Source: Sandaracinobacteroides hominis
GTDB lineage: Bacteria > Pseudomonadota > Alphaproteobacteria > Sphingomonadales > Sphingomonadaceae
Direction: 5' to 3'
DNA length: 64,000 nucleotides
Assembly: GCF_016464365.1 (NCBI RefSeq)
Contig: NZ_JADCUC010000003.1
Coordinates: forward strand, 62,001 to 126,000
The position numbers and the translations under genes are program-made. This document shows, in pieces, positions 31,271-53,643 of this stretch. The stretch's first letter is position 1. Each line of letters begins with the position of its first letter. Below the pieces are notes generated by a model that did no database searches, had not been told where the DNA came from, and saw only the letters and a program-made list of their open reading frames with translations.

Positions 31271-33583
31271 CTAGAAGCTGAATCCGACCGTCGCGCCGAA
31301 CGTCCGCGGACGCGCTGCACCCGCCAACATCTGGGTGATATTCTGTCCGCCCAGATCGGTCGGCACCGCCGTCGGATAGGCCCCGGCGCTGATCAGGGCC
31401 AGTTCGTTCGTCAGGTTCCGGGCATAGGCCGAAACGGTGACCCCGCCGAAGCGAACGCCGGCCCGCAGGTCCACATTCATGTAGCCCGGCAAGATGATCG
31501 GCCCGCCAAAGGCAGCGCGATAGGCCGCGTTGAAGCCGCCGGGTTGCTCACTCACGATCTGCACATTGCCGCCTACCCAGGCCGCCGCATCGTCGCCGAT
31601 CGACCATTCATAGTCGGCCGCTAGGCTGGTATTCAGCTTCGGCGCATAGGGGAGCTGGTCGCCGTCATAGCCGCCGGTCAGGTTGGTCCCGCCACCGCTC
31701 GGCACGGTGTCGTCCAGCAGTTTCGCGTCGTTGTAGGCGAAGTTCAGCGTCATGGTCAGACCGGCGATGGGCCGGGCGATGGCCGTCAGTTCCACACCGA
31801 CGCTGCTCGCATCCTGCCCGTTGGTGTTCACCCCGACTGGCCCTGCCGGCGTATCCACCAGCCCCAGGATCAGGATGTCGCTCCAGTCGAGATAATAGAC
31901 CGAGGCATCCAGGCTGAAGGTCCGCTCCGGCGTTTCCGCCCGCAGGCCGACTTCATAGCTGATGAGCGTATCCGCCGAAAATTCGCTGGGATATCCGGCC
32001 GGCGGGTTCGGCGGGATGAAGTTCGGCCCACCCGGGCGATAGCCCTTGGCAACACGCGCATAGACAACAGTGCGATCGTTGATTTCAAAGCGTGGCGACA
32101 CCGACCAGGTGAAGACGCCTTCGGACGAAGAACCATCCTGCGGCGTTCCGGCACCCAGCTGTATCACCTCCTGAGTGGAACTCTGCGAGTTATGGCTGTA
32201 GCGCCCGCCCGCGGTGATATCGAAGCGATCGCCCAGATGCAGCGTCGCCGAACCGAAGGCCGCGACTTCCTCATATTTGGCGTCGATGGCTGCAGTCACG
32301 AAGTGCGGATAGGTGGTGCCTGCAAAGGTGAACTCGGTCGGCAGCAGTTGCTCGGTCGCCAGAGAGAAGGGCAGGTATTCCTGCGCCAGCCCGGTGTCCT
32401 CATGCGTGTAATAACCGCCGACAACCCATTCGAACTTGTCGTTGTTTGGTGAGGCCAGCCGCACCTCCTGCGTGAATTTCTTCACGTCGATGTTGTTCTG
32501 ATAGGCGACCCCGATCGTCCCCGGCGCCGCCGGCGCATAGAAGAAGTTGGCCGTCGGGCGGATCGAGTTGGTGCTGATGTCGCTCAGCTGCTTCTGGATC
32601 TGCGTGCTGTAGCTGGTAATCGAGGTGAGATCGGCAAAGCCCACCGCCCAATCGATCGTCCCCGAATACATCCGGTAGTCGACTGTATTGCTTTCGGCAA
32701 TCCGCTCATAGCGCGTCAGGTTGGATGTGTTGGCCCCGGTAATCGGGTCTGTTGGATGCATCGTCAGCGGATTGACGGTAAAGTTCGAAGGCGAACCGAC
32801 ATCGATATTCTGCGCCAGCGCAAACAGCCGAACCGAGAAATTATCGGACGGCGCAAACAGCAGCGAAGCGCGGCCGCCATAGATCTGCGCGTCGTTCACA
32901 TTCTTCGCGTTGCGTCCCGCGGCATCGATATAGCCCGCCGTATCGCGATAGAAACCACTTGCACGGAACGCCAGCGTCTCGCCCAGCGGCACGTTAGCCA
33001 TGGCGTTGGCATACCAGCTGGTGCCGCCGCCCTTGGTCGTTTCAACGCCGGCCTGCCCGCGCGCAATCAGCTTGTCGGTGCTGGGCTTTGCGGTGATGAA
33101 GCGCAACACGCCACCAAGCGCATTGGAACCATAGAGCGTGCCCTGCGGCCCCCGCAGAACCTCGATGCGCTCGATGTCGAAGGTATCGAAGTCTCCGGCC
33201 AGAATGCCGCCGTTGGAAAGACTGCCGCTCGCGCCGAACGGGCTGTCATCGACATAGATCGCAACCGTGGAACCGACGGAGCCGGTATTCACGCCGCGCA
33301 GGATAACCCGCGATTCACCCGGCGTATCCTGCGTCAGCCCCATGCCGGGCACCATCTTCACATAGTCGAGGAAGCTGGTTGCCTGCTGCTGTTCCAGCGT
33401 TGCCCCGCTCAGGATGGCAACGGATTGCGGCACCTCGAACAGCGTCTGCTCGCGCCGCTGAGCGGTCACGAGGATTTCTTCCATCCCGGTTTCAGTATCC
33501 ACGGCATCTGCCGCCAATGCCGGTGCGGCCGCCAGCACGATCGCTGCCATGCCGGCGCCCTGCAACCAATGACCCATCGCCAT
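31271..33583 (-). CDS. TonB-dependent receptor of the D-amino-acid-peptide locus
   Basis: A 770-residue outer-membrane TBDR. ATG 33581-33583 is preceded by GAAGGGA and opens a signal peptide (MGHWLQGAGMAAIVLAAAPA, cut near ALAA). The TonB box is EEILVTAQRRE, the plug holds VPQSVAILSGATLEQQQATS and RVILRGVNTGSVG, and the barrel ends with a terminal Phe (GATVGFSF). Its barrel type resembles receptors annotated for siderophores or complex organics; the substrate is not readable. It sits downstream of the first XRE-cupin regulator on the same strand, with two operator-like elements at 33690-33728 between them. I infer uptake of the peptide substrate of the locus. Confidence 0.9.
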   Translation of the reverse strand: MAMGHWLQGAGMAAIVLAAAPALAADAVDTETGMEEILVTAQRREQTLFEVPQSVAILSGATLEQQQATSFLDYVKMVPGMGLTQDTPGESRVILRGVNTGSVGSTVAIYVDDSPFGASGSLSNGGILAGDFDTFDIERIEVLRGPQGTLYGSNALGGVLRFITAKPSTDKLIARGQAGVETTKGGGTSWYANAMANVPLGETLAFRASGFYRDTAGYIDAAGRNAKNVNDAQIYGGRASLLFAPSDNFSVRLFALAQNIDVGSPSNFTVNPLTMHPTDPITGANTSNLTRYERIAESNTVDYRMYSGTIDWAVGFADLTSITSYSTQIQKQLSDISTNSIRPTANFFYAPAAPGTIGVAYQNNIDVKKFTQEVRLASPNNDKFEWVVGGYYTHEDTGLAQEYLPFSLATEQLLPTEFTFAGTTYPHFVTAAIDAKYEEVAAFGSATLHLGDRFDITAGGRYSHNSQSSTQEVIQLGAGTPQDGSSSEGVFTWSVSPRFEINDRTVVYARVAKGYRPGGPNFIPPNPPAGYPSEFSADTLISYEVGLRAETPERTFSLDASVYYLDWSDILILGLVDTPAGPVGVNTNGQDASSVGVELTAIARPIAGLTMTLNFAYNDAKLLDDTVPSGGGTNLTGGYDGDQLPYAPKLNTSLAADYEWSIGDDAAAWVGGNVQIVSEQPGGFNAAYRAAFGGPIILPGYMNVDLRAGVRFGGVTVSAYARNLTNELALISAGAYPTAVPTDLGGQNITQMLAGAARPRTFGATVGFSF

Positions 33584-33689
33584 TCTGAAATTCCCTTCTC
33601 TCGCAGGGCCGCCTTGTGGCGTGTTCCCGCAGACTGTCCCTGAGACGGCCCCAACCGTCATGAAAATGCATAAGATCATTCCAATCCGA

Positions 33690-33728
33690 GAATTTCAATC
33701 CCGAACAGGACAGTTTTTCAGTTCAGCG
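33690..33728. promoter_or_regulatory. Tandem operator-like elements upstream of the TonB-dependent receptor
   Basis: Two elements about 20 bp apart: GAATTTCAATCCCGAACAG (33690-33708) and GACAGTTTTTCAGTTCAGCG (33709-33728). The second matches GACAATTTTCCGTTCAGGAA at 47093 with few differences, and the first matches the neighbour of that site at 47074. They lie between the TBDR start and the end of the XRE-cupin gene. Proposed operators; inference. Confidence 0.5.
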
Positions 33729-33770
33729 TCTCCGGAAAGCCACGATGTGGCCGCGCGCAGGGCCCGGCGT

Positions 33771-34400
33771 TCAGGCCGCCACTTCTCCATGCAGGCTCAT
33801 CAGCGAATCCATCAGCCCGTCTTCGGCGCTCGAACAGACGCCCAGCACCAGCGCCTCCTCAAAGCCTTCGGCCACCAGATAGGCATGGCCCATCGTCGAA
33901 TCGATATAGATCGCCTCGCCGGGGTTCAGGGTCACCGGATCATAGTGCGTCGTATGCACCACGATCCGCCCCTCCAGCACATAGACCAGCTCTTCGCCGG
34001 GATGCGTGACCAGATCGCCGAACTCCTCGGTGCTGCGGGCGCGGATGCGGGTCAGGATCGGGATCATCCGCTTCCGGCGCAGGTCCGTGCAGAGATAATG
34101 ATAGTCGTAGTTGTCCGTTTCGACGCGCAGCGCCCGCTCCATCGTTCCGATGCTGCGGCGTGCCGTCACCTGCGGCACTTCGACATCCGGGCCTTCTGCG
34201 AACAGCTCGGACATCCGCATCCCCAGCCGCCGCGACAGCTGTTGCAGCTTGTCATAGGACAGCGTCAGCCGATCGTGCTCGATCTTGGACAGCGTAGAGA
34301 CCGGGATGCCGGTCTTCGCGCTCATTTCCTTCAGCGTCCACCCCTGGCGGCTGCGAAGGCCCCTCAGCACCGTCCCGAGTGTCGAATGCGTATCGTTCAT
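33771..34400 (-). CDS. XRE-family regulator with C-terminal cupin domain (copy 1)
   Basis: A 209-residue transcription factor. ATG 34398-34400 (MNDTHSTLGTVLRGLRSRQG) was chosen because it gives the same N-terminus as the paralogue at 43700. Residues about 10-65 form a HTH of the XRE type with recognition helix GIPVSTLSKIE. Residues about 110-200 form a cupin (THPGEELVYVLEGRIVVHTT; LNPGEAIYIDSTMGHAYLV), which usually senses a small ligand. It is transcribed divergently from the large hydrolase operon and upstream of the TBDR. The shared recognition helix with copy 2 suggests both read one operator family. The ligand is unknown; a D-amino acid or its N-acetyl form would fit the context. Confidence 0.88.
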   Translation of the reverse strand: MNDTHSTLGTVLRGLRSRQGWTLKEMSAKTGIPVSTLSKIEHDRLTLSYDKLQQLSRRLGMRMSELFAEGPDVEVPQVTARRSIGTMERALRVETDNYDYHYLCTDLRRKRMIPILTRIRARSTEEFGDLVTHPGEELVYVLEGRIVVHTTHYDPVTLNPGEAIYIDSTMGHAYLVAEGFEEALVLGVCSSAEDGLMDSLMSLHGEVAA

Positions 34401-34429
34401 CGAGTTCCAGAGCCCCACAAACCTGTTTG

Positions 34430-34449
34430 ACAATTTTCCAATTAGAACC
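34430..34449. promoter_or_regulatory. Operator-like element between regulator 1 and the hydrolase operon
   Basis: ACAATTTTCCAATTAGAACC carries the CAATTTTC-N-GAA core also found at 47074, 47093 and, more loosely, 33690 and 43603. It lies 30 bp upstream of the regulator start and about 130 bp upstream of the first operon gene, so it could serve both divergent promoters. Inference from motif recurrence. Confidence 0.5.
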
Positions 34450-34579
34450 ATGATGCTCCGATTGGGACGAAGCTTGCCTTAACGATAAGCGCTCCATCCA
34501 GCTCGTGCAAGCAGCGCAAGGAAGCCTGCAGCCATGGCGCGGAAGGACGCTCACGGGCAGGAGCATAAAGGGAATCTGC

Positions 34580-36574
34580 ATGCGGCGAATCATACGAGAT
34601 CTGGCAGTCGGGCTGCTCGCCCTTACCGGCACGTTCTCTGGCGCAATGGCGCAGGGCCCGGCCCCCGCCCCGGTCGCCGCGACGCCCGCGAAAACCGCCG
34701 CAATCCTACCGGCAGCTCCCGTCGGCTCAGTCCCGCTGACCAAGGCCGACGCGGACGCCTGGCTCGATGGGCTGATGCCCTATGCCCTCGCCCGCGCAGA
34801 TATCGCTGGCGCCGTCGTCGTCATCGTGAAGGACGGCCAGATTCTCACGCAACGCGGTTTCGGCTTCTCCGATGTCGCCAAGCGCACGCCAGTCTCACCG
34901 CAAACCACCCTTTTCCGGCCTGGCTCCGTCTCGAAGCTTTTCACCTGGACGGCGGTCATGCAGCTGGTCGAACAGGGCAAGGTTGATCTGGATGCCGACG
35001 TCAACAAATACATCGACTTCAAGATTCCGGACTATCAGGGCAAGCCCGTCACCCTGCGACAGATCATGACGCACACGTCGGGCTTCGATGAAAGCGCGCG
35101 CTATCTGATCAGCCCGAACCCGAACGATCACCTGCCGCTGGGCGAAGTGCTGAAACGCAGCCTGCCGGTCCGCGTCTATGCGCCGGGATCGACACCTTCC
35201 TACTCCAACTATGCCACCGCGCTCGCCGGCTATGTCGTGGAGCGTGTCTCGGGCCAGCCGTTCGACGATTATCTCGACGCCCATATCTTCAAGCCGCTGG
35301 ACATGCAGCACGCGACCTTCCGCCAGCCGCTGCCGCCGGCTCTCGCGCCGCTGATGTCCAAGGGCTACAAGACCGCCGGCACCGATGCCAAACCGTTCGA
35401 ATTCGTCCTCCCGGCCCCGGCCGGCAGCCTGTCGGCCAGCGGCGAAGACATGGGCAAGTTCATGCTCGCCCACCTCGCCAATGGTGCCGGCCTGCTGAAG
35501 CCCGAAACTGCGGCCATGATGCACGACTACCGCGCCCCCGGCGTCGGTCCGCTCAACACCATGGCGCTGGGCTTCTACGAGCAGCACGCCAATGGTCACC
35601 GCGCCATCGGACATGGCGGCGACACCCAGTGGTTCCACTCGCTGCTGATGCTCTTTCCCGACAGCAACACCGGCTTCTTCCTGTCGATCAACAGCCTCGG
35701 CGACCCCGGCGCCGCCGGATCGCTGCGCAACGCGTTGTTCCACCAGTTCGCCAACCGCTATCTCGCCCCGGTTCCGCTGGAACCGGCGCAGAAGCTCGAC
35801 GAAAAGACCAGGCGCGAACATGGTGCGCTGCTGGCCGGCAACTACGCCAACAGCCGCGGCGGCGTCGCCAGCTTCATGGCTGCCACCGGTCTGCTGGGCC
35901 AGACCAAGATCAGCGTCGACGACAAGGGTCAGGTTACCTCCGCCTCGTTCAACGGCTTCGGCCGCGAGCCGGTGAAGTGGGTCGAAGTCGCCCCGTTCGT
36001 CTGGCGCGATCCGCTCACCGGCGAACGCCTGGCTGCCAAGGTGGAAAATGGCCGTGTCGTCCGCGCCAGCATCGATCAGATCTCGCCGTTCATGGTGCTC
36101 AATCCGGTGCACTGGACGGTCGATGCCAAATGGCTGGTGCCCGCCATCAGCGCCGCACTCGGCCTTGTCGCGCTCACCGCGCTCGCCTGGCCGGCAGGCG
36201 CCATCGCCCGTCGCCGCCACGGCGTCGCCTTCCCGCTTACCGGAAGAGATCGCCGGGTATTCCGCATCACCCATGCGCTCGCATGGCTGGCGCTCGCCAT
36301 CTTCGCCGGCTGGGCAACGCTCATCACCCTGATGTTCGCCGACCTCGCCAATCTCGGCGGCAAGCTGGATTGGCTGCTCTACACGCTGCAGATCCTCACG
36401 CCGGTGGTTCTCGTCGCCTTCCTCGGCTTCGCGATCTGGAACCTGCTGCTGATCTGGCGCCGCAACTCGGGCTGGGGCTCAAGGCTGTGGGGCGTGCTGG
36501 TGGTGCTGTCCGCCATAATCTTCCTGTGGTTTGCCTGGTTCGGCAAGCTGATCGGCTTTGGAACGGTATATTGA
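34580..36574 (+). CDS. Secreted serine hydrolase (beta-lactamase/D-aminopeptidase fold) with membrane tail
   Basis: A 664-residue class C beta-lactamase-fold protein. ATG 34580 (MRRIIRDLAVGLLALTGTFS) starts a signal peptide and is preceded by AAAGGGA. The active-site serine is in SVSK (Ser116, Lys119) and the tyrosine in YSN (Tyr208-Asn210); HGG follows near residue 350. After a beta-rich linker, the last roughly 150 residues contain about four transmembrane helices (for example WLVPAISAALGLVALTALAW), so the catalytic domain is anchored on the periplasmic face. Family members are D-aminopeptidases, DD-peptidases or esterases. First gene of the operon; its TGA shares a base with the next ATG. 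Confidence 0.88.
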   Translation: MRRIIRDLAVGLLALTGTFSGAMAQGPAPAPVAATPAKTAAILPAAPVGSVPLTKADADAWLDGLMPYALARADIAGAVVVIVKDGQILTQRGFGFSDVAKRTPVSPQTTLFRPGSVSKLFTWTAVMQLVEQGKVDLDADVNKYIDFKIPDYQGKPVTLRQIMTHTSGFDESARYLISPNPNDHLPLGEVLKRSLPVRVYAPGSTPSYSNYATALAGYVVERVSGQPFDDYLDAHIFKPLDMQHATFRQPLPPALAPLMSKGYKTAGTDAKPFEFVLPAPAGSLSASGEDMGKFMLAHLANGAGLLKPETAAMMHDYRAPGVGPLNTMALGFYEQHANGHRAIGHGGDTQWFHSLLMLFPDSNTGFFLSINSLGDPGAAGSLRNALFHQFANRYLAPVPLEPAQKLDEKTRREHGALLAGNYANSRGGVASFMAATGLLGQTKISVDDKGQVTSASFNGFGREPVKWVEVAPFVWRDPLTGERLAAKVENGRVVRASIDQISPFMVLNPVHWTVDAKWLVPAISAALGLVALTALAWPAGAIARRRHGVAFPLTGRDRRVFRITHALAWLALAIFAGWATLITLMFADLANLGGKLDWLLYTLQILTPVVLVAFLGFAIWNLLLIWRRNSGWGSRLWGVLVVLSAIIFLWFAWFGKLIGFGTVY

Positions 36575-37569
36575 TGACCCACCTCACCCTATCCGCGCGT
36601 ATCGAGCTGTTTCCCTACAAGAAGCCGTTCCGCATCTCCGGCCACGTCTTTACCGAGACAGCGGTCGTGCTTGTCGAACTCTCCGACGGACAATCGACCG
36701 GACGCGGAGAGTCGGCGGGCGTCTATTATCTGAACGACGATGCTGCCGCGATCATGGCGGCGATCGAAAGCGTCCGCCCCGCCATAGAGGCAGGCGCCAC
36801 CCGTCAGGACCTGCAGGCGCTGCTGCCCCCCGGCGGCGCCCGCAACGCCCTCGATTGCGCCTATTGGGATCTGGAGGCCGCCCAATCCGGTCGCCCGGCC
36901 TGGCAGCTGGCTGGCCTCCAAAGCCCGCGCCAGCTTCCCACCACCATCACGCTGGGCGCTGACGCGCCAGAGGTGATGGCAGCAGCAGCGGCCACGCTGG
37001 ACACCCACCATATCAAGCTGAAACTCACCGGAGAGGCCGAGCTCGACGCTGCCCGCGTAGCCGCAGTCCGCGCCGTCCGCCCGGATGCCTGGATCGGGGT
37101 CGACGCGAATCAGGGCTACAAGGCAGACGCCCTTCCCGCGCTGTTCGACATGCTGCTTACCCACAGCATCGCCCTCCTCGAGCAGCCCCTCGCCCGCGGT
37201 GCCGAAGCCGACATGGACGAGGTTGATCGCCCGATCCCGGTCGCCGCAGACGAAAGCGTTCTGTCGCTCGCCGAAATGGATCGCCTGCCCGGCCGCTTCG
37301 ACGTGCTCAACATCAAGCTGGACAAGTGCGGCGGCCTTACCGAAGCGCTCGCCATGGCCGGGCGCGCCCGCGAAATGGGCCTCGACGTGATGGTCGGCAA
37401 CATGATGGGCTCCAGCCTCGCCATGGCGCCCTCCTTCCTCCTCGGCCAGCTCTGCGACGTGGTCGATCTCGACGGTCCCACCTTCCTCGCAACCGATCGC
37501 ACGCCAGCCGTCACCTACACCGACGGCAAGATCGATTGCCCGGCAGAGCTTTGGGGTGGAGCAGCCTGA
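36574..37569 (+). CDS. dgcA: Enolase-superfamily epimerase, DgcA-like (N-acetyl-D-Glu racemase or dipeptide epimerase)
   Basis: A 331-residue cytoplasmic enzyme of the muconate-lactonizing subgroup. Acid-base lysines are in IKLKL (Lys148, Lys150) and NIKLDKCGG (Lys248); Mg ligands are in GVDANQ (Asp177), LLEQPL (Glu203) and AADES (Asp226, Glu227). Two known activities fit: L-Ala-D/L-Glu dipeptide epimerase and N-acetyl-D-glutamate racemase (DgcA of the DgcN-DgcA D-glutamate pathway). The DUF1611 protein two genes downstream is the known partner type of DgcA, which favours the second. It overlaps the preceding stop (TGATG). Epimerase class is sure; the exact substrate is inference. Confidence 0.82.
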   Translation: MTHLTLSARIELFPYKKPFRISGHVFTETAVVLVELSDGQSTGRGESAGVYYLNDDAAAIMAAIESVRPAIEAGATRQDLQALLPPGGARNALDCAYWDLEAAQSGRPAWQLAGLQSPRQLPTTITLGADAPEVMAAAAATLDTHHIKLKLTGEAELDAARVAAVRAVRPDAWIGVDANQGYKADALPALFDMLLTHSIALLEQPLARGAEADMDEVDRPIPVAADESVLSLAEMDRLPGRFDVLNIKLDKCGGLTEALAMAGRAREMGLDVMVGNMMGSSLAMAPSFLLGQLCDVVDLDGPTFLATDRTPAVTYTDGKIDCPAELWGGAA

Positions 37570-37603: not shown

Positions 37604-38752
37604 ATGACTCTCTCGCGCCGGAACATGCTGGGAAGCGGCGCCTCGCTGCTTGCCTTCCCGATGATCGCCAAAAGCCGGATCGCCCTGGCGGCAGGCGGCC
37701 CCGCCTTCTCGAAGCGCGCGATCGACGTGGTGAAGGAATCGCTCGTCATCGACATGCTGGCGCCGCTCAAGATCAGCCTCACCGCAGACGCCTACACCCG
37801 CCGCCTGACCGACGCCGAAAAGGCCGAGTTTCGCGGCAGCGGTATCACCGGATTCCACAGCGCCTGGGGCCTGGGCGGCCCCGACGCCTTCACCGATGCG
37901 CTGGAAAATCTGGCCGCCTGGCAGGGCTTCGTCGGCCGCAACAGCGACGTCTTTACGCTCGTCGGCGAAGTCGAGGACCTCGATCGCGCCAAGGCCCGCG
38001 GCCTCTGCGCCGTCATCATGGGCATCCAGAACGCCGAGCATTTCCGCACGGTCGAGGATGTCGCCCGCTTCCATCGCCTCGGCCTGCGCTGTTCGCAGCT
38101 CACCTACAACAGCCAGAACATGATCGGTTCCGGAAGCACGGACCGTGTCGACGGCGGCGTCAGCGACTTCGGGGTCTCCATCATCGCCGAAATGGAAAAG
38201 GTCGGCATGCTGGTCGACATCTCCCACTGCGGCGACCAGACCAAGCTGGACGGGATCCAGCTCGCCAAGGGCCCGATCGCGATCACGCACAGCAATTGCC
38301 GGGCGCTGGTCGATCACCCCCGCACCACCACCGACGAAGCGATCAAGGCGCTCGCCGCAAAGGGTGGGGTGATGGGTATCACCGGCGTCCGCATGTTCAT
38401 CAAGAAGACCGATCCCACCACCATCGTCGATCTCGTCGATCACATCGATCATGTCCGCAAGCTCACCAGCATCGAGCATGTCGGCATCGGCTCGGACGCC
38501 GATCTCAACGGCTATGACGACATGAAGCCCGAAGAATATGCGATCCTGAAATCCTCCTACAAGGCGAGCTACGGCTTCCGCGAGAAGATCGATACAGACG
38601 GCTTCGATCATCCGAAAAAGACCTTCACGCTGGCCGAGGAACTGATCCGCCGCGGCTATTCCAACGCCGACATCAAGGCCGTGCTCGGTGGCAATTTCCG
38701 CCGCCTGCTCGCCCAGACATGGACGCCCCGCCCGGAAGCAAAAAGCTCGTGA
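37604..38752 (+). CDS. Tat-exported M19-family dipeptidase with altered metal site
   Basis: A 382-residue renal-dipeptidase-family protein. ATG 37604 opens a Tat-type signal (SRRNMLGSGASLLAFPM) cleaved near residue 30. The M19 core is present, with VDISHCG (His208), ITHSNCRAL (His229) and GIGSDADL (Asp298) conserved. The first metal motif HxD is replaced by IDMLAP (residues 49-54), and the bridging Glu is Gln142 (MGIQNAEHF). A divergent M19 subgroup with these features exists, so this need not be an inactive copy, but dinuclear zinc chemistry is doubtful. M19 enzymes cut dipeptides, often with D-residues. It follows the epimerase after 34 bp and overlaps the next gene. Confidence 0.85.
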   Translation: MTLSRRNMLGSGASLLAFPMIAKSRIALAAGGPAFSKRAIDVVKESLVIDMLAPLKISLTADAYTRRLTDAEKAEFRGSGITGFHSAWGLGGPDAFTDALENLAAWQGFVGRNSDVFTLVGEVEDLDRAKARGLCAVIMGIQNAEHFRTVEDVARFHRLGLRCSQLTYNSQNMIGSGSTDRVDGGVSDFGVSIIAEMEKVGMLVDISHCGDQTKLDGIQLAKGPIAITHSNCRALVDHPRTTTDEAIKALAAKGGVMGITGVRMFIKKTDPTTIVDLVDHIDHVRKLTSIEHVGIGSDADLNGYDDMKPEEYAILKSSYKASYGFREKIDTDGFDHPKKTFTLAEELIRRGYSNADIKAVLGGNFRRLLAQTWTPRPEAKSS

Positions 38753-39762
38753 CGCGCAGCATCCCCCGCCCCTACCTCCTCTTCCTGGGGGACACGCAAA
38801 ACCCCAGCTACGCCAAGACGGCCTTTGGCCTCCGCGACTGGGCAGCCGACGACTGCCTTGGCGAAATCGCGCTGCCAACGGCGAGCGTCACCACCGGCCT
38901 GCCGCGTCTCTCCCCTGCAGACGCCCGCAAAGCCGGCGCCCGTTCCCTCGTCATCGGCGTCGCCAACGAAGGCGGCGTCATCCCGCCCGCCTGGGTGCCG
39001 CTCCTCGTCGAAGCGCTCGACGCCGGCCTTGATCTCGTCAGCGGCATGCACGTCCGCCTGGGCTCCATCCCCGAGCTCGCCGACGCCGCAGCGCGCAACG
39101 GCCGCCAGCTGATCGACGTGCGCGTACCCCCCGCCGGGCTTCCCACCGGCAACGGCCGCAAGCGCACCGGCAATCGCCTCCTGACCGTTGGCACCGACTG
39201 TGCACTGGGCAAGAAATACACCGCCCTGGCCATCGCCCGCGCCTTCAAGGCACGCGGCGTGGACGCCGACTTCCGCGCCACCGGGCAGACCGGAATCCTG
39301 ATCGCCGGCGGCGGCATGCCGATGGACGCCGTCGTCGCCGATTTCGAAGCCGGCGCCGCCGAGCAGCTCAGCCCCGATGCGGCGCCCGATCATTGGGACA
39401 TCATCGAGGGTCAGGGCTCGCTCTTCCACCCGGCCTATGCCGCCGTTTCGCTGGGCCTGCTGCACGGGAGCCAACCTGACCTGTTCATCGTCTGCCACGA
39501 TCCGGACCGCAGCGAGGTGATGGGCATCGCCGGCCTGCCGCTTCCCACCATAGAGGAGGTGATCGAACTGACGGTGCTGCTCGGCAAGCGCACCAACCCC
39601 GCCATCCGCTGTGCCGGGGTCAGCCTCAACACCTCGGCGCTTTCCGAAGCAGCCGCCGAAGCCGTCCTTGCCGCCACCTCCGCGCGTCTCGGATTGCCGG
39701 CGGCGGACCCGGTCCGCGGCGGCCCCGCCTTCGACGCCCTCGTCGACGCCTGCCTCGCATGA
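38749..39762 (+). CDS. dgcN: DUF1611 P-loop protein, DgcN-like D-glutamate N-acetyltransferase (copy 1)
   Basis: A 337-residue cytoplasmic protein of the DUF1611 family. I chose GTG 38749 over an in-frame ATG at 38719 because it gives VTRSIPRPYLLFLGDT, matching copy 2, and overlaps the M19 stop as GTGA. The P-loop-like motif is GTDCALGKKYT (residues 148-158), followed by FRATGQTGILIAGGG and EGQGSLFHPAYAAV. In the known D-glutamate pathway, DgcN acetylates D-Glu and DgcA racemises the product to N-acetyl-L-Glu, an arginine precursor. Both components lie in this operon. Identity as DUF1611 is firm; substrate is inferred from the partner. Confidence 0.83.
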   Translation: MTRSIPRPYLLFLGDTQNPSYAKTAFGLRDWAADDCLGEIALPTASVTTGLPRLSPADARKAGARSLVIGVANEGGVIPPAWVPLLVEALDAGLDLVSGMHVRLGSIPELADAAARNGRQLIDVRVPPAGLPTGNGRKRTGNRLLTVGTDCALGKKYTALAIARAFKARGVDADFRATGQTGILIAGGGMPMDAVVADFEAGAAEQLSPDAAPDHWDIIEGQGSLFHPAYAAVSLGLLHGSQPDLFIVCHDPDRSEVMGIAGLPLPTIEEVIELTVLLGKRTNPAIRCAGVSLNTSALSEAAAEAVLAATSARLGLPAADPVRGGPAFDALVDACLA

Positions 39763-44356: not shown

Positions 44357-45365
44357 ACCCCAGGCAAAAGTCCACCAGCCGCTCCAGCGCCGGCCCGCCC
44401 CGCAACGGATCGGCCGTCGGCAGCCCGAAACGGTCCTCCGTCCGCGCAATCTCCGCCTCGGCCTCTGCCGCGCCCATGCTGCCGGTGTTCAGGCTGATCC
44501 CGCCGCACCGGATCGCCGGATTGGTCAGTCGCCCCGCCTGCAGATAGGTATCGATGGCCGCATCCAGCGCCGGCACCGGAAAGTCCGGCCGGCCCAGGAT
44601 CGCCGTCCGCCCCGGCTGATGGCACAGCACGATGACATCCGGCTGGCTGCCGTGCAGCAGCCCCAGCGTCACCGCCGCATAGCTCGGATGGAACAGCGAA
44701 CCCTGCCCCTCCACGATATCCCAATGGTTGGCCGCCGCATCCGGGCTCAGCATTTCCGCCGCCCCCGCCACGAAATCCGAAACCACGGCGTCGATGGGGA
44801 TGCCACCGCCCGCAATCAGGATGCCGGTCTGTCCGGTCGCGCGGAAATCCGCCGCCACGCCCTTCGCCCGCATCACTCGCGCAATCGATAGCGCGGTATA
44901 TTTTTTCCCCAGCGCGCAATCCGTGCCCACGGTCAGCAACCGCTTGCCCGTGCGCTTCACGCCCGTTCCCACCGGAATGCCGGCCGGCGGCACCCGCACA
45001 TCGTGCAGCGTCCGCCCAAAGCGCCTCGCGGTCTCCGCCAGCACCACATTGTCAGACAGCCGCCCATGCATCCCGCTGATGATGTCCAGACCCGCTTCCA
45101 GAGCCCCGACCAGGGGCGCAATCCAGCTATCCCCCAACTGGCCGCCCGGATGCGCCACGCCGATCACCACCGCGCGTGCGCCCTTGCCCGCCGCCTCGGC
45201 TGCGTTCATGCGCGGGAGGCCGGTCGTCAGCAGCGAGCCGGCAAAATCGAGCTCGCCCAGGCAATTCTCGGGCACCCACTGGTGCAGCCCATAGGCGGTC
45301 TTGGCAAAGCCCGGCTCGGCGATATCGCCCATGAACAGCAGATAGGGTGTAGGAAGCGTCGTCAT
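44337..45365 (-). CDS. DUF1611 P-loop protein, DgcN-like (copy 2)
   Basis: A 342-residue paralogue of the DgcN-like protein at 38749. ATG 45363-45365 (MTTLPTPYLLFMGD) follows GAGGGGGG; an in-frame GTG at 45377 would overlap the upstream stop and add four residues. It keeps GTDCALGKKYTALSIARVMR, FRATGQTGILIAGGGIPID and EGQGSLFHPSYAAV. It lacks a neighbouring epimerase; instead it is co-transcribed with the amidohydrolase upstream, from the promoter region at 47.0 kb. A second acetyltransferase for another D-amino acid, or a backup for D-Glu, would fit. The exact substrate is unknown. Confidence 0.83.
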   Translation of the reverse strand: MTTLPTPYLLFMGDIAEPGFAKTAYGLHQWVPENCLGELDFAGSLLTTGLPRMNAAEAAGKGARAVVIGVAHPGGQLGDSWIAPLVGALEAGLDIISGMHGRLSDNVVLAETARRFGRTLHDVRVPPAGIPVGTGVKRTGKRLLTVGTDCALGKKYTALSIARVMRAKGVAADFRATGQTGILIAGGGIPIDAVVSDFVAGAAEMLSPDAAANHWDIVEGQGSLFHPSYAAVTLGLLHGSQPDVIVLCHQPGRTAILGRPDFPVPALDAAIDTYLQAGRLTNPAIRCGGISLNTGSMGAAEAEAEIARTEDRFGLPTADPLRGGPALERLVDFCLGFNPRSG

Positions 45366-45373
45366 GTCCCCCC

Positions 45374-47023
45374 TCACGACTTGGTCACTGGCGCGCAGGC
45401 GCCCTTCAGCACCATGCCCGGACGGGCACCGGTGATCTTGCCGCCGTCCACCACCAGCTGGCCGTTCACCAGCACATAGTCGATGCCCACCGGCGAAATG
45501 GTCGGCTCCGCGAACGACGCACGGTCGTCCAGCTTGTCATAGTCGAAGATGGTGATGTCGGCACGAAGCCCCTCGCGCAGCACGCCGCGATCATCCAGCC
45601 CCATGCGCGCCGCCGGCCACGAGGTCATCTTGCGCACGGCATCCTCCAGCGTCAGCACCGGCCGCCGCTTCACATATTCGGCAATCGCCCTGGCCGCGTT
45701 GCCATAGGCACGCGGGTGCGGCAGCCCCAGCCCGTCGATCTTGCCATAGACCGGAGCGGCGCCGGCATCGCTGCCGATCGAAACCCACGGCCGCTTCAGC
45801 GCCGTCTCGATGTCGCGTTCGTCCATCATGAAATAGAGCGCCACGGCGCGTTTCGGCAGCGCCTCCAGCATGATGTCCCACGCCACATCCGCCGGGTCCC
45901 TGTTCAGCTGCTTTGCAATCGCCGCGATCGACTGGAAGCGATACGGTTCCCACTTCGGATTGTGCGGATTGGCCAGCACCACCCTGTCCCAGCCGCCCGC
46001 CGAATAGACCATGTTGGTCCAGCCCGGCTGCGGTCCGGCGGCCAGGTCCTTCTTCATCCGCTCGCGCTGCACCGGGTCCTTCAGCAGGGCCACCGCCGCA
46101 TCGAAGCCATTCTCATACACCCAGGTGGGCGCGGTGATTTCCAGCCCGGTCCCGGCAAAGGGATACATGTACATGTCGGCCGCCACATCGACGCCACGCG
46201 CCCGCGCCGCGTCGATCAGCTTTACGGCATCCGGCATCATCTTGCCGAAGTTCGGCGCATAGGCGGCCTTCAGGTGGAAGATTTCCACCTTCACCCCGGC
46301 CCGCTCGCCGATCTCGATCGCCTCCCGGATGCCGTCCAGCAATCCGGCACTTTCGTCCCGCATGTGCGTTGCATAGATCGCCCGGCAGGGGGCGGCCGCC
46401 TTCACGATCTCCACCAGCTCGTCGGTCGTCTGGAAGCTCCCGGGCGGGTAGATCAGCGCCGTTGCCAGCCCCAGCGTGCCGGCGTTCATCGCCGTGCGCA
46501 CTTTCTCGCGGATCTTCTCCAGCTCCGCGGGCGTCGGCGGAGTCGCCTTGTCTCCGATCACTTCCTCGCGCGCCTGCGTTGCCGAATAATAGGTGCCGAA
46601 GTTGATGCTGATGCCCTTCTTCTCCAGCTCCCTGAAATATGCCGCCACTTCGTCAGCCGGCACCGGGGTCCCGCCCTCTCCGGCGATCACCGTGGTAACA
46701 CCCTGATACAGCTTGTTTTCCGCCAGGCCATTTTCGCGCAGCACCCGGCCCGACTGGTCCATCATGTCGATCCAGCCCGGCGTCACATAACGCCCGGCCG
46801 CATCGATCTCGCGCTTGCCCTTGCCCTCTACCTTGCCGATCCTGGCGATCCGTCCATCGACAATGGCAAGATCGCCCGTCACCCACGGGTTCCCGGCGCC
46901 GTCCAGCAATCGACCGTTTCGGATCACCACATCATAGGCAGGGCTTTTCGCCGCCAGAGGTGTCGCCAAAGATGTATGCGCAAGAAAGGCAGCAACAAGC
47001 GCCGCGCGCAGGTAAGTCCGCAT
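45374..47023 (-). CDS. Secreted amidohydrolase, N-acyl-D-amino-acid deacylase-like
   Basis: A 549-residue exported amidohydrolase. ATG 47021-47023 is preceded by GGAAGGGG and opens a signal peptide (MRTYLRAALVAAFLAHTSLA). The fold matches D-aminoacylase: FDVVIRNG-type start, YATHMRDES (His220), EIFHLKA (His250) and IGSDAG (Asp419). The usual HxH metal motif (PGFIDxHxH) is replaced by PGWIDMMDQSG (residues 82-92). A recognised amidohydrolase subgroup with MDQSG in this place appears to exist, so it is probably functional but not the textbook binuclear type. It heads an operon with DgcN copy 2, divergent from the second TBDR. Confidence 0.82.
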   Translation of the reverse strand: MRTYLRAALVAAFLAHTSLATPLAAKSPAYDVVIRNGRLLDGAGNPWVTGDLAIVDGRIARIGKVEGKGKREIDAAGRYVTPGWIDMMDQSGRVLRENGLAENKLYQGVTTVIAGEGGTPVPADEVAAYFRELEKKGISINFGTYYSATQAREEVIGDKATPPTPAELEKIREKVRTAMNAGTLGLATALIYPPGSFQTTDELVEIVKAAAPCRAIYATHMRDESAGLLDGIREAIEIGERAGVKVEIFHLKAAYAPNFGKMMPDAVKLIDAARARGVDVAADMYMYPFAGTGLEITAPTWVYENGFDAAVALLKDPVQRERMKKDLAAGPQPGWTNMVYSAGGWDRVVLANPHNPKWEPYRFQSIAAIAKQLNRDPADVAWDIMLEALPKRAVALYFMMDERDIETALKRPWVSIGSDAGAAPVYGKIDGLGLPHPRAYGNAARAIAEYVKRRPVLTLEDAVRKMTSWPAARMGLDDRGVLREGLRADITIFDYDKLDDRASFAEPTISPVGIDYVLVNGQLVVDGGKITGARPGMVLKGACAPVTKS

Positions 47024-47073
47024 AAGGCCCCTTCCGGTTTCCCCAGACGAATGATTCGACGCTAGCCTAGCGG

Positions 47074-47113
47074 GCAATTTTCGCATCCGAAAGACAATTT
47101 TCCGTTCAGGAAA
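47074..47113. promoter_or_regulatory. Strongest tandem operator pair in the locus
   Basis: GCAATTTTCGCATCCGAAAG (47074-47093) and ACAATTTTCCGTTCAGGAAA (47094-47113) sit next to each other about 20 bp apart. Each is an imperfect dyad with left arm TTTTC and right arm GAAA. They lie 50-90 bp upstream of the amidohydrolase start. Best representatives of the recurring element; binding by the XRE-cupin regulators is inferred. Confidence 0.55.
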
Positions 47114-47312: not shown

Positions 47313-47408
47313 TTGACCCATTTCTCCAAACCGAGAATGTTGCAAGGAATCGCGACAAAGTTCGCGAACGCCGACGGGAGGCTCCGCAGATAACGAAGGG
47401 GATATGCG

Positions 47409-50258
47409 ATGCACACGGCATTTCAGTTTCAGCCGCGACGCAGCCGGGTTTCGGCACTTCTGGCCACCACGCTTCTGACCACCTTTGCCGCCCCCGCGCT
47501 GGCACAGGTGACGGCGACAGCTGCCGAGCAGACCGGATATGACGACATCATCGTCACCGGCTCGCAAATCGCCCGCTCCGGCTTCGATACGCCCACCCCG
47601 GTCACCGTCATTGGCGTGGCCGATTTCGAACGCGTCGCCGCGCCCAACATCGCCGACGCGCTGAACCAGCTCCCGGCGCTGAAGGCCAGCGCAACGCCCT
47701 CTTCCAGTACCAACCTGTCGAAGATCGCCGGCGCCAACTATATGGACTTGCGCGGTCTCACCTACCTGCGCACCCTCACCCTCGTCGATGGCAAGCGCTA
47801 TATCCCGGCCTCCCCCGAAGGCGTCATCAACGTCAACACCATCCCGCAGGCGGCGATCAGCTCGGTCGAAGTCGTCACCGGCGGCGCCTCGGCCGTCTAT
47901 GGCTCCGATGCCGTCGCCGGCGTCGTCAACTTCAAGCTCGACGACAAGCTGCAGGGCCTGCGCGGGAATGCCCAGTTCGGCATCAGCGACTATGGAGACC
48001 GCGAGAATTACCTCGCCTCCGTCGCCGCAGGCACCAAATTCGGCGGCGGCCGCGGCCATGTCCTCGTCGGCGCGGAATATGCCAAGTCCAAGGGCGTTCC
48101 CCGCGTCGGCAGCCGGCCCTGGGGCGACTAGACCGTCATCAACAACCCCGCCTACACCAGCACCAACAACGAGCCCATGTATATCCTGGTGCCGGATGCC
48201 CGCGTTTCCAACGCCGCCTATGGTGGCGTCATCAACAGCGCAGTCGGCCCCAACGGCACGGCGCTTTTGCGCGGCATCCAGTTCCTGGGCAACGGCCAGA
48301 CAGGTCCGTTCGACTATGGAACCCTCACCACGGCCACGTCGCAACAGGGCGGCAGCGGCGTCAACAACACCAACGATCTCGTGCTGGAACAGCCCTATGA
48401 ACGCTGGGCCGTGCTGGCCAAGGCCGAATACGAGCTCTCCGACTCCTTCACCCTCTATGGTCGCGGCAGCTACGCCGGCTCGAAGATGATCGGCGACAGC
48501 ATCATCGGCAACGACCAGATCACCATCCGCAGCGAAAATGTCTTCATCCCCACCCCCGTCCGCGCGATCCTCAACGCCAACCCGGGTATCACCAGTTTCG
48601 TCATGGGCCGCTCGCTCAACGATTACGCCCGCGGCTATTTCGATCAGGATGTCTGGTCGTGGCAGGCGGTCGGCGGTGTGAAGGGCAATATCATCGGCTC
48701 GTGGAACTATGATTTCGCCCTCACCTACGGGAAGAGCCGCAACAAGACGGTCTTCATGGACAGCCGCAACACCCAGGCCTGGCTCCGCGCCGTCGATGCC
48801 GTCGACAACCCGGCCACTCCCGGCGTCGTCGATCCGATCTGCCGCTCGACCATCACCAACCCCGGCAATGGCTGCATCCCGCTCAACCTGTTCGGGGTCA
48901 TCCAGCCGGGCGAGCAGGCGGCCGCGATCGCCAGCATCCTGGGGCCGTCCGTCCGCGACTGGCATCAGACGCAAACCACCCTCGATTTCCTCGTTCGCGG
49001 GGATGTGATCAACCTGCCCGCAGGCGCCGTGGCTTTCGCGGGCGGCATCCATTGGCGCAAGTTCATCAGCGAAACGACGTCCGATCCGATCTCCGCCTCG
49101 CGGCCGAACGGCTCCACCGTCTATCGCGTGGGCAACACCATTCCGTTCCGCGGCACGCAGGATGTGGTGGAGGCCTTCGGCGAAGTTCTGATCCCGGTCC
49201 TCGCCGACCTGCCCTTCGCCAAGCAGCTCGACCTCAGCCTCGCCGGCCGCATCACCGACTACAAGACATCCGGGCAGGTCGAGACCTGGAAGGTCGGCGT
49301 CAACTACGCCGTCACCGATGCCCTGCGCCTGCGCGCCACCCGCTCGCGTGACATCCGCGCGCCAAACATTCAAGAGATGTTCGCCGCCGGGCAGACGCTG
49401 ATCTATGGTATCAACGACGCTGCCCGCAACGAAAGCTACACCGTCTCCGCCACCCAGGGCGGCAACCCCTATCTGAAGCCGGAAAAGGCCGACACCTTCA
49501 CGGCAGGCATGGTGCTTTCGCCGATCTCGCAGCTGCGCTTCTCGGTCGACTATTACAACATCGAGATCGAAGGCGCGATCGCCGCCCTCACCGCCCAGCA
49601 GATCGCCACGCTCTGCTTCAACGGCGATCAGGCCATCTGCCAGCTGATCACCCGCGAACCCGTCACCGACGGCATCAGCCCGGGCAGGATCACCGGCATG
49701 CGCCTTGCACCGGCCAACTTCCAGAGCATCAAGACGAAGGGCGTCGACTTCGAGGCCGCCTACAACTTCCCGCTCTGGAACGGCACCTTCGATATCCGTG
49801 TGCTCGCCACCTATGTGAAGCAGCTGGATCTCATCGGCATAGCCGGCTCCACCACCAAGCTCGCCGGCAACATGGCGCAGCCGCTGATCGACGGCGTAAA
49901 CGGCACACCGCACTGGCGTGGCCAGGCCGTGCTCGGCTACTCCACCGACGCCTTCCGCGCCAACGTAACCGGCCGCTACGTCGGCGGCGGCGTCGTCACG
50001 CGCGACTTCATCGCCAGCAAGCCCGACGTGCCGATCACCGATCCGATCAACGCCAAGAACCGGCTCTACATCGATCTCTCGGGCGAAGTCGGCCTGTTCA
50101 GCGTCGGCGCAGAGGGCAAGGTCTCGCTCTACGGCGCGATCCAGAACCTCTTCAACACCGATCCGCCGGTCACCGGCTACGACGGCTATGGCGCACCCCG
50201 CCAACTGTTCGACCTGATCGGCCGCCAGTACAACATCGGCGTCCGCGTCACGCTCTAG
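47409..50258 (+). pseudogene. TonB-dependent receptor split by an in-frame amber codon
   Basis: A 950-codon TBDR frame, intact except for TAG at 48129-48131. The first part has a signal peptide (SALLATTLLTTFAAPALAQV), the TonB box region YDDIIVTGSQIARSGF and the plug (ALNQLPALKA; VEVVTGGASAVYGSDAVAG). Immediately after the stop the same frame continues (TVINNPAYTSTNNEPMYILV) into a full barrel that ends GVRVTL. Nothing else is damaged, so this is a very recent nonsense mutation, a sequencing error, or a suppressed amber codon. The annotated substrate class is unknown; its co-location with peptidase genes suggests oligopeptide uptake. It heads an operon with the class A-like gene. Confidence 0.8.
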
Positions 50259-50290
50259 GCATCGAAGCCACGGCCAGAAGAGGAGTTGCA

Positions 50291-51316
50291 ATGTTCCGAA
50301 TGAAGACGCTGGCCGTGGCTGGCCTGCTCGCAACCGCGGCGATCATCGCCCCGCCGCTGACGGTCGCCGCCCATGCCCAGGCCGGCACCCCCGCCGGACA
50401 GGCCGCGCTTGCCGCCCAGTTCGCCAGGCTCGCGCAGCAGACAGACGGCAGCGTCGGCGTCGCCGTGCAAAAGGTCGGCTCGAAGGAGATGATCACCCTC
50501 AACAAGGGTGTCACCTACCCTATGGCCAGCACCTTCAAGATCGCGGTGGCCGGCCGCATCTTCGAACGCATCGACAAGGGCGAGCTCAAACTCGACCAGA
50601 TGATATACGTCGATCCGAAGCTGGTGGTAAATTCCGACGGCATCGCCCGCTTCGCGCCGCATGCGGGTGTGTCGCTGTCGCTGCACAACCTGCTCGAACT
50701 GATGTTGACCCGGAGCGACAACACGGCAACCGACGTGCTTACGGCACTCGCCGGGGGCCCGGCGGTGGTGACGGACTGGGTCAAGCGGCAAGGCGTCTCC
50801 GGACAGCGCATCGACGCAGACACCGCCCACCTCATTTACCGCGCGCTCGACATCACGCCGGGCCCCGGCACCTTCGCCGAGAACATCCAGGCCGCCTTCA
50901 AGGCCGACCCGAGCAAACAGGAACGCGACCAGAAGCGCCTGCCCAACAAGCCCTTCAACGACGACCCGCGAGACGCTTCCACACCCGAAGCCATGGTCCA
51001 GCTCCTCCTTGCCATCGAAAGCGGCAAGGCGCTCAGCCCGGCCAGCACCAGGGAACTGCTGGCGATCATGGAGCGCTGCATCACCGGCGAGAAGCGCCTG
51101 AAAGGACTTCTGCCCGCCAACACCGTCGTCGCCCACAAGACCGGCACATTGATGAGCATCGCCAACGATGTCGGCCTGATGACCATGCCAGATGGCAGCA
51201 AGGTCGCCATCGCCGTCTTCGTGAAGGGCGACACCAAGGGCGTCGAGACGCAGGAGCGCGTCATCGCCGAAATGGCCCGCACCGCCTATAATTACTACGT
51301 CCTCGGCGGCCGCTGA
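50291..51316 (+). CDS. Class A beta-lactamase-fold protein lacking the deacylation glutamate
   Basis: A 341-residue exported serine enzyme. The signal peptide (MKTLAVAGLLATAAIIAPPL) ends near AHAQ. Motifs are STFK (Ser80, Lys83), SDN (142-144) and KTG (283-285). The position of the class A ExxLN motif (after RLD) reads RIDADTAHLIY (from Arg173), so the deacylating Glu and Asn are not there; instead an insertion follows before PRDASTPEAM. It should acylate on substrates but not turn over as a beta-lactamase; a DD-peptidase or peptide-amide role is more likely. ATG 50291 follows AGGAG, 32 bp after the TBDR. TGATG overlap joins the next gene. Confidence 0.85.
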   Translation: MFRMKTLAVAGLLATAAIIAPPLTVAAHAQAGTPAGQAALAAQFARLAQQTDGSVGVAVQKVGSKEMITLNKGVTYPMASTFKIAVAGRIFERIDKGELKLDQMIYVDPKLVVNSDGIARFAPHAGVSLSLHNLLELMLTRSDNTATDVLTALAGGPAVVTDWVKRQGVSGQRIDADTAHLIYRALDITPGPGTFAENIQAAFKADPSKQERDQKRLPNKPFNDDPRDASTPEAMVQLLLAIESGKALSPASTRELLAIMERCITGEKRLKGLLPANTVVAHKTGTLMSIANDVGLMTMPDGSKVAIAVFVKGDTKGVETQERVIAEMARTAYNYYVLGGR

Positions 51317-53643
51317 TGCGCGCGATCTGGGCGGCGCTGCTGCTGGCGGGCGCGGCTCCGCAGGCTCTTGCCCAACCCGCTACGACGCCAACCATCGCCC
51401 CTGTCGCGCTGGCGCAGGCCACGGCCGCTATCGAGGCGGCCGCCCAGGCTGAACTGGCCGACAAGCAGATCCCGTCCATCGCCATCGCCCTCATCGACAG
51501 GAACGGCACCATCTGTAGCAAGGCCTGGGGCAAGGCCGACACGGCCGGCAAGCTCGCCGCCACCCCGCAAACACTCTACCGCGCCGGCTCCATCAGCAAG
51601 CTCTTCACCGACATCGCGGTCATGCGCCTGGTCGAGCAGGGCAGGGTCGACCTCGACGCTCCCGTCACCACCTATCTCCCCGAATTTCGCCCCATCAACC
51701 CGTTCGGCGTTCCGATCACCCTGCGCCAGTTGATGACTCATCGCAGCGGCCTCGTCCGCGAACCGCCGCGCGGCCACTATTTCGATTATGCAGCGATGGG
51801 CCAGCCTGACGCCGTCGCCAGTCTCAACGAAACCACCCTTGTCGCGAAACCCGGCAGCGTCACCAAATACTCCAACGCCGGCATCGCCGTGGTCGGCGAA
51901 GTCGTCGCCCGAGTCACCGGCCTGCCCTACGAACAGGCCGTCTCCAGACTTGTCCTGGAACCGCTGGCGATGGGTGCCAGCGGCTTCAGCCTCGCCGCCC
52001 TCAAATCCCCGGTCGCCAGCTCGCAGATGGCCTCCTTCGACGGCGGCCGCTGGGAGGCCCCGCCGCTGGAGCTCGGCACGCCCGCCGCCGGCAGCCTCTA
52101 CACCAGCGCCACCGACCTCGCCCGCTTTGCCCAGGCCATGCTGAACGGCGGCAAGCCCCTGCTCACCCCCGCCAGCGTCAGCGAAATGTGGCGCGAGCAA
52201 TATACGCCCGCAGGCGGCCGCCGCTTCGGCCTTGGCTTCGCGCTTGGCGAACTGGACGGCAAGCGCACGGTCGGCCACGGCGGCGCCGTCTATGGCCACG
52301 TCGCCGACCTCCGCCTCCTGCCCGAAGCAGGCCTCGCGACGGTGGTGCTCGCAACCGTCGATTCCAGTCCGGTAGCCGGCCGCCTCGGCAGCTTCGCACT
52401 CCGCACCCTGCAGGCCGCCCGACAGGGAAAACCGCTCCCGATCTGGCAACGCACCACCGCCATAACCGGCGACGAGGCCGTGCGCCTCTCCGGTCGCTAT
52501 GTCGACGGTGCGGACAGCGTCAACCTCCGCATCTTCGACGGCGGCCTCGTCCTGGACGCCCCCGAACGCGCAGCGGAAGTGCGCAAGCTCGGCGCCAATT
52601 TTGTCCTCGATGACGTCCAGCTTTTCGACGACAAACTGGCCTTTGCCGCCAACACGGTCACGCTCGGCAACCGCACCTACCGGCGCGCCGAATGGCCCCG
52701 GCCGAAACCGCCCGAACCGGAACTTGCCGCACTGATCGGTGAATATGGCTGGGATTACAACGTGCTGCGCATCTACGAGCGCGACGGCAAGCCGTATGTC
52801 CGCATCGAATGGACCGATTGGCTACCGCTAACGCGCCTCGCCGCAGACCAGTATGCCTTCCCCGCGGATCGCGGCCTTTATCCGCTGGAATCCCTGAAGT
52901 TCGAGCGCGACTCCAACGGCAAGGTGACGGCGGCCATGCTAGGCGCCATCCGCTTCCGGCGTCGTGATTTCGGCGCCGACGCGGAGGCGATGATCCGCGC
53001 GGCGATGAACACCGGCATCGACAGCCTGCGCGCCAACGCGCAGAAGGCCACGCCGCCCGTCGAACCGCCAAAGCCCACAAACCTCACCCCGCTCGCCAGC
53101 ATCGATCCGACCCTCCGTTTCGATATCCGTTATGCCACGACCAACAATTTCATGGGCAAGCAGATCTACGAACAGCCCGGCGCCTTCCTGCAGCTATCCG
53201 CAGCCCAGGCCGTGGGCCGCATCCACCGGAAGCTGCAGCAGCAGGGCTTTGGCCTGCTTATCCACGACGCCTATCGCCCCTGGTATGTCACGAAGATGTT
53301 CTGGGACGCGACGCCCGAAGCAAACCGCATGTTCGTCGCCGACCCGTCGAAAGGCTCCCGCCACAACCGCGGTGCGGCCGTCGACCTGACCTTGTTCGAT
53401 CTCGCAACGGGCAAACCCATCGTCACCACCGGCCGCTACGACGAATTTTCCAGCCGTTCCTACTCCAACTATGTCGGCGGCTCCGACGAACAACGCTGGC
53501 TGCGCGAGGTGTTGCGCAACGCGATGGAAGGCGATGGCTTTACCGTCTATCCGCAGGAATGGTGGCACTTCGACCAGATCGGCTGGGAACGCTACCCGAT
53601 CGGCAATGCCCGCTTCAGCGAGATCACCCCAAAAGCGCCCTGA
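51316..53643 (+). CDS. Secreted serine hydrolase fused to a VanX-like D-Ala-D-Ala dipeptidase
   Basis: A 775-residue two-enzyme fusion. A signal peptide (MRAIWAALLLAGAAPQALAQ) is followed by a class C beta-lactamase-fold domain (residues about 35-390) with SISK (Ser92, Lys95), YSN (Tyr185) and HGG near 320. A beta-rich linker follows (about 425-570). Residues about 575-775 form an M15D dipeptidase: DAYRPW, SRHNRGAAVD (His683, Asp690) and EWWH (Glu748, His751), with the same spacing as VanX zinc ligands. Both halves act on D-Ala-containing peptides, so the protein could trim D-Ala then split D-Ala-D-Ala. ATG shares one base with the preceding stop; the end overlaps the adenosine kinase gene by 20 nt. 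Confidence 0.88.
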   Translation: MRAIWAALLLAGAAPQALAQPATTPTIAPVALAQATAAIEAAAQAELADKQIPSIAIALIDRNGTICSKAWGKADTAGKLAATPQTLYRAGSISKLFTDIAVMRLVEQGRVDLDAPVTTYLPEFRPINPFGVPITLRQLMTHRSGLVREPPRGHYFDYAAMGQPDAVASLNETTLVAKPGSVTKYSNAGIAVVGEVVARVTGLPYEQAVSRLVLEPLAMGASGFSLAALKSPVASSQMASFDGGRWEAPPLELGTPAAGSLYTSATDLARFAQAMLNGGKPLLTPASVSEMWREQYTPAGGRRFGLGFALGELDGKRTVGHGGAVYGHVADLRLLPEAGLATVVLATVDSSPVAGRLGSFALRTLQAARQGKPLPIWQRTTAITGDEAVRLSGRYVDGADSVNLRIFDGGLVLDAPERAAEVRKLGANFVLDDVQLFDDKLAFAANTVTLGNRTYRRAEWPRPKPPEPELAALIGEYGWDYNVLRIYERDGKPYVRIEWTDWLPLTRLAADQYAFPADRGLYPLESLKFERDSNGKVTAAMLGAIRFRRRDFGADAEAMIRAAMNTGIDSLRANAQKATPPVEPPKPTNLTPLASIDPTLRFDIRYATTNNFMGKQIYEQPGAFLQLSAAQAVGRIHRKLQQQGFGLLIHDAYRPWYVTKMFWDATPEANRMFVADPSKGSRHNRGAAVDLTLFDLATGKPIVTTGRYDEFSSRSYSNYVGGSDEQRWLREVLRNAMEGDGFTVYPQEWWHFDQIGWERYPIGNARFSEITPKAP

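Follow-up and report, generated by a model that had tools for sequence, protein, structure and literature searches.

About 22 kb of DNA (~16 genes; positions 31271-53643) within the 64-kb stretch analyzed here (the window, at G000:C15:62001-126000) is, in our judgment and with some reserve, a TonB-linked utilization locus for D-amino-acid peptides, with a re-specified DgcN/racemase pair, control through an XRE-cupin operator, and a D-residue that is probably not D-Glu. ORF calling combined with Pfam and NCBIfam searches identified two TonB receptors, two XRE-cupin regulators, two DgcN proteins, one DgcA-like racemase, one APC-fold transporter, and seven exported proteins from hydrolase families of the D-peptide type. 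Every gene class that the initial annotation had named was present where it had been placed; two of the seven exported proteins lack the usual metal ligands. The 22 kb contain both DUF1611/DgcN genes of the 3.53-Mb host genome (2/2; random-placement p ~4e-5), 3 of its 15 S12 genes (p ~1e-4), and 2 of its 5 M19 genes (p ~4e-4), each p value being computed for that gene class alone. The main operon comprises the genes from S12a through M19b; they overlap slightly at S12a/racemase (36574), DgcN1/transporter (39759-39762), transporter/S12b (40862-40865), and S12b/M19b (42424-42427), with four-base overlaps recurring along the operon. DgcN2 and an amidohydrolase gene overlap likewise on the opposite strand, and a third unit consists of receptor 2, a beta-lactamase-like gene, and an S12-VanX fusion.

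The cytoplasmic enzymes belong to a separate type. The racemase (36574..37569, + strand), an MR_MLE member of the enolase superfamily, conserves the catalytic residues KxK, D, E, D, and K, while scoring 364-366 bits against the DgcA model NF042940 (cut-off 400) and 247 bits against the Ala-Glu epimerase model (cut-off 343). DgcN1 (38719..39762, + strand; PF07755/PF17396; best PDB match 7xrj) and DgcN2 (44337..45377, - strand; PF07755; 61% identical to DgcN1) have the DUF1611 N and C domains at full length and reach 451 and 446 bits, respectively, against NF041892 (cut-off 480). The DgcN and racemase proteins, called DgcA/DgcN-like in the initial annotation, score just under the curated cut-offs. 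Classical (type I) adjacent pairs, which come from the window's own family as well as from other Alphaproteobacteria, carry GTDCSVGKM and the Arg of HMRGLP in DgcN; their racemase has a basic residue after ISRG, together with PYPRYGE and VGCM. The cluster type (type II), to which the DgcN and racemase of the window belong, has GTDCALGKK without the HMRGLP Arg in DgcN, and FRISGHVF, GVYYLND, KCGG, and VGNM in the racemase. All 12 classical sequences, from 11 genomic pairs plus PDB 7xrj, have the HMRGLP Arg, which is mostly Leu in the cluster type. The position aligned with Arg24 of the E. coli Ala-Glu epimerase, a residue that we take to contact the Glu side chain, is Phe in 67/70 type II racemases and corresponds to Phe28 in the window racemase. 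In 91 pairs the two types were matched without exception, with basic residues in both enzymes of all 21 classical pairs and in neither enzyme of all 70 cluster pairs.

We take the loss of basic residues from both enzymes to mark a substrate shift away from acidic side chains, so that the D-residue handled in the cytoplasm is probably not D-Glu and is likely non-acidic; an altered mode of D-Glu binding, rather than lost acidic specificity, is conceivable. Type II racemases form one clade on a long branch with full support (0.69, SH-aLRT 100), the exception being L123, which groups with the others. The match of types would therefore largely reflect one ancient switch, and the 21/21 and 70/70 counts may represent a single evolutionary event rather than many independent changes. 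In the 11 type I loci whose flank extends to ~9 kb, the search found no such XRE-cupin, transporter, S12b, or M19 homolog; the flanks of the remaining type I loci are too short to judge their neighbors. The DgcN-racemase pairs of L123 and L125 carry a third motif set (PIPHHGE and GVDYAGE), possibly reflecting further specificities.

A DgcN-based scan of GTDB genomes yielded 79 loci from Sphingomonadales, Xanthomonadales, Steroidobacter, Duganella, and a few others; since they were chosen through DgcN, their counts describe DgcN neighborhoods and not all genomes. The commonest order is an XRE-cupin gene on the - strand diverging from S12a, racemase, (M19a), TonB receptor, DgcN, transporter, S12b, and M19b on the + strand. 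S12a is present in 71 of the 79 loci, a TonB receptor in 67, XRE-cupin in 65, racemase in 63, the transporter in 62, and S12b in 59; the most frequent adjacent pairs are DgcN-transporter (52), S12a-racemase (45), receptor-DgcN (44), transporter-S12b (42), and the divergent XRE-cupin/S12a pair (42). Many bacteria of soil and water thus share a similar gene order, and the loose, unrelated order in relatives that would have spoken against the initial annotation was not observed. In a second order, found in Sphingopyxis and others, XRE-cupin 2 is followed by S12a, DgcN, transporter, amidohydrolase, and racemase, and in one locus of this arrangement (L008) the beta-lactamase-like gene and S12-VanX are present as well. 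Given these two arrangements in relatives, the window holds two related modules side by side, with receptor 1 moved and inverted. DgcN-model matches were found in 49 of 200 genomes of the window's own family. S12-VanX or VanX matches (E<1e-60) occur in 8/200, all 8 of them among the 49 DgcN carriers (hypergeometric p 8e-6); the full-length S12-VanX is rare (5/200). One family member (G303) has seven DgcN-model genes, which suggests an expanded D-amino acid catabolism.

The two regulators, XRE-cupin 1 (33771..34400, - strand) and XRE-cupin 2 (43700..44356, + strand), both contain HTH_3 and Cupin_2 domains and are 42% identical. Divergent spacers beside XRE-cupin genes share the motifs AATCAGGA (36/58) and GGATCATTAT (29/58). 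A 42-bp operator matrix (PWM) built from 23 sites in relatives, with the consensus TATCCTAATAGGGACATAATGATCCTGATTAGAAAATTGTCA, has its best site in the window between XRE-cupin 1 and the S12a operon (34428..34469, - strand; 42.8 bits). The next two are candidate operators upstream of the amidohydrolase-DgcN2 unit (47072..47113, - strand; 4.6 bits) and, as the weakest of the three, upstream of receptor 1 (33671..33712, - strand; 1.9 bits). These three top scores over all positions of the window each precede a cluster unit, and five whole-window shuffles peaked at -0.9 to -11.9. The core TCCTGATTRGAAAATTGTCA, with up to 3 mismatches, has two matches genome-wide (34428 and 47092), and the reversed control has none. 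In relatives, further operator copies lie ahead of the receptor, M19a, or DgcN within their own locus, while the PWM revealed no clear site of this kind at the receptor 2 operon in the window. With a predicted operator shared by several cluster units, the term regulon used in the initial annotation appears apt and becomes testable. An apparent 20-bp palindrome, considered as an operator of XRE-cupin 2's own, proved to be two joined k-mers and is absent from the sequences.

The exported hydrolases differ in the state of their active sites. S12a (34580..36574, + strand; PF00144) conserves SxxK/YSN/HxG, has four C-terminal transmembrane segments according to a TM scan, and matches ClbP and the alkaline D-peptidase; S12b (40862..42427, + strand; PF00144, PF11954) carries a DUF3471 domain. 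Both share the S12 motifs of known D-stereospecific peptidases (ClbP, BogQ, Pab87, alkaline D-peptidase), which they also resemble in the periplasmic domain with membrane tail of S12a and the DUF3471 domain of S12b; they differ in that the S12 genes of the window lie in a catabolic locus rather than in a cluster for biosynthesis or resistance. The metal site of the M19b dipeptidase (42424..43575, + strand; PF01244) is complete, with HxD, Glu, His, His, and Asp 100% conserved in 23 relatives. M19a (37604..38752, + strand; PF01244; Tat-like signal) lacks the full binuclear set (HxD, Glu, His, His), as DML replaces the HxD region and Gln the bridging Glu in 26/26 relatives; its nearest PDB entry, 2i5g, likewise has Gln at that position, and the subfamily is possibly a one-metal or non-dipeptidase M19 group. 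The earlier statement that M19 enzymes cut D-dipeptides is consequently safe for M19b only. The amidohydrolase (45374..47023, - strand), of the D-aminoacylase/N-acyl-D-Glu deacylase family (PDB 3gip, 1m7j), lacks HxH, which its 15 relatives replace by DMMDQ (minor variants), and its counterpart of the D-aminoacylase Cys metal ligand is an invariant Glu. Both it and M19a retain the two later His and the Asp, and they may be one-metal enzymes, given the usual ligand roles in these hydrolase families.

The remaining two hydrolases belong to the third unit. The class A beta-lactamase-like protein (50291..51316, + strand; PF13354) passes model NF033103 (212 bits; cut-off 200) and has SxxK, SDN, and KTG. 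Despite this score it lacks a class A hallmark, the ExxLN omega-loop motif (Glu166), which is also absent in six relatives, and its annotation as a resistance gene could be mistaken. The S12-VanX (M15) fusion (51316..53643, + strand; PF00144, PF01427) matches the M15 profile and contains the zinc-site motifs SRHNRGAAVD and EWWHF. It shares this domain and the SxHxxGxAxD and ExWH-type motifs with the D-Ala-D-Ala dipeptidases VanX and DdpX, but, unlike in those, the domain is fused behind an exported S12 domain.

TonB-dependent receptor 1 (31271..33583, - strand; PF00593, PF07715) lies in an ORF that opens at 33679, the likely start at 33583 being chosen from the signal peptide. Receptor 2 (47409..50258, + strand) is interrupted by an in-frame TAG (48129-48131) that separates the plug from the barrel. 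The frame is uninterrupted in the congeners G191 and G192 (72-75% identity), where the neighbors are the same as in the window (amidohydrolase, DgcN, beta-lactamase-like, and S12-VanX genes); either a sequencing error or a recent loss may explain the TAG. An antisense ORF of 1041 amino acids overlying receptor 2 (47208-50333, - strand) has no Pfam match and was rejected as a spurious high-GC artifact. The transporter (39759..40865, + strand; 368 residues) has no Pfam match, but its AlphaFold model (pLDDT 93) resembles LeuT-fold amino-acid carriers of the APC superfamily. PDB fold matches include BasC, LAT, and Nramp, the best TM-scores (0.72-0.71) being those with BasC, a bacterial Ala/Ser/Cys exchanger. 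The predicted fold supports import of free amino acids and is neutral as to chirality.

From these parts a route can be proposed. The TonB receptors would take peptides through the outer membrane, and the S12 hydrolases, M19b, and S12-VanX, judging from their families and intact active-site motifs, would cut beside D-residues in the periplasm. The transporter would then carry free amino acids or small peptides inward. In the cytoplasm, by analogy with the classical DgcN-DgcA pair, the D-amino acid would be N-acylated by type II DgcN and then converted from its N-acyl-D to its N-acyl-L form by the type II racemase; no deacetylase for this N-acyl-L-amino acid was seen in the cluster. The cupin domain of the XRE-cupin regulator presumably senses a product, and through the conserved operator the regulator would control the main operon together with the DgcN2-amidohydrolase unit and, probably, receptor 1. 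The conserved synteny and the shared operator support the earlier proposal of one D-peptide scavenging system ordered by compartment. We suggest, tentatively, that the type II pair is a second N-acylation/racemization route, from non-acidic D- to L-amino acids, at the cytoplasmic end of a widespread XRE-cupin-controlled TonB D-peptide locus.

The initial annotation had taken muropeptides as the probable source and D-Glu as the D-residue, which DgcN and the racemase would turn into N-acetyl-L-Glu. DgcN and DgcA are indeed the nearest curated families, dgcN has been assigned to acidic D-amino acids and their amides (PMC12363236), the VanX and carboxypeptidase-like folds suit stem peptides, and no Mpl homolog in the genome exceeds its cut-off. 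We nevertheless regard this reading as unlikely. Besides the sub-cut-off scores and the missing basic residues of both window enzymes, the genome encodes elsewhere an AmpG-family muropeptide permease and a separate racemase (L106:7060-8037; G000:C1:429068-430036) that exceeds the DgcA cut-off (415 versus 400 bits) and has Lys at the Arg24 position. This racemase, which adjoins an enolase gene and has no neighboring DgcN, may be the enzyme that actually handles acidic residues in this genome. As the cytoplasmic pair seems retuned away from D-glutamate, the cell wall is not the obvious food; the VanX domain of the second module allows D-Ala-D-Ala-type substrates, so that peptidoglycan is a weakened but conceivable source.

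Slightly less probable still is a role in defense against, and feeding on, the non-ribosomal peptide antibiotics of neighbors, with the S12 peptidases destroying them and the other proteins salvaging D-residues. BogQ and other D-stereospecific S12 peptidases cleave antibiotics of this kind (PMC9541196), S12a joins its S12 domain to a membrane tail and matches ClbP and the alkaline D-peptidase, and the distribution in the family is patchy (49/200), but a dedicated catabolic pair and TonB receptors suit nutrition better than resistance, and the cluster contains no efflux ABC pair. Differences in gene content between loci and the displaced receptor 1 might also be taken to mean that D-peptidase genes have merely collected here without a common function; against the order kept across orders, the conserved operator, and the co-occurrence, this seems highly improbable. 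Microcystin (mlr) degradation was set aside after a search of the genome gave no MlrC-family match, a weak result given that the control gave no match anywhere. We thus retain the TonB-linked D-peptide utilization locus as the preferred reading.

Compared with the known D-glutamate pathway DgcN-DgcA (NF041892, NF042940; EC 2.3.1.312, 5.1.1.25), the window has the same two families as genomic partners, with presumably similar chemistry. DgcN-DgcA is a bare pair, whereas the window pair is type II at the diagnostic positions, lies under both cut-offs, and is embedded among D-peptidases, a TonB receptor, and XRE-cupin. The racemase shares its fold, KxK/K, metal ligands, and DxD motif with L-Ala-D/L-Glu epimerases (YcjG, PDB 1jpd; 4gfi), from which it differs by Arg24 to Phe and PRYGE to YYLND. 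In its receptor, exported hydrolases, transporter, catabolic enzymes, and local regulator, the locus would resemble TonB-linked polysaccharide utilization loci, but it has peptide/D-amino acid enzymes, and neither SusD nor glycosidases. The DgcN-DgcA pathway is mentioned in PMC10845958, PMC11747546, and PMC12363236, peptidoglycan recycling in Caulobacter in PMC13046382, and a dipeptide epimerase or dipeptidase, without this locus, in PMC6090828 and PMC9123166. Nothing on the locus, on DUF1611 with TonB receptors, or on the operator was found in the open-access literature, although such absence does not prove novelty. All parts are known; within that literature we found the assembled locus, the operator, and the type II pair undescribed.

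D-amino acids count as refractory organic matter. To our knowledge, the uptake of D-peptides as food across the Gram-negative outer membrane is poorly charted, and the locus offers a concrete candidate for it in culturable genera (Sphingopyxis, Sphingomonas, Lysobacter, and Pseudoxanthomonas). The predicted operator would provide a handle on the inducer and the predicted enzyme pair a measurable substrate. Similarity-based annotation of DgcN/DgcA may overstate D-glutamate catabolism, and the class A beta-lactamase-like gene may wrongly be taken for a resistance gene.
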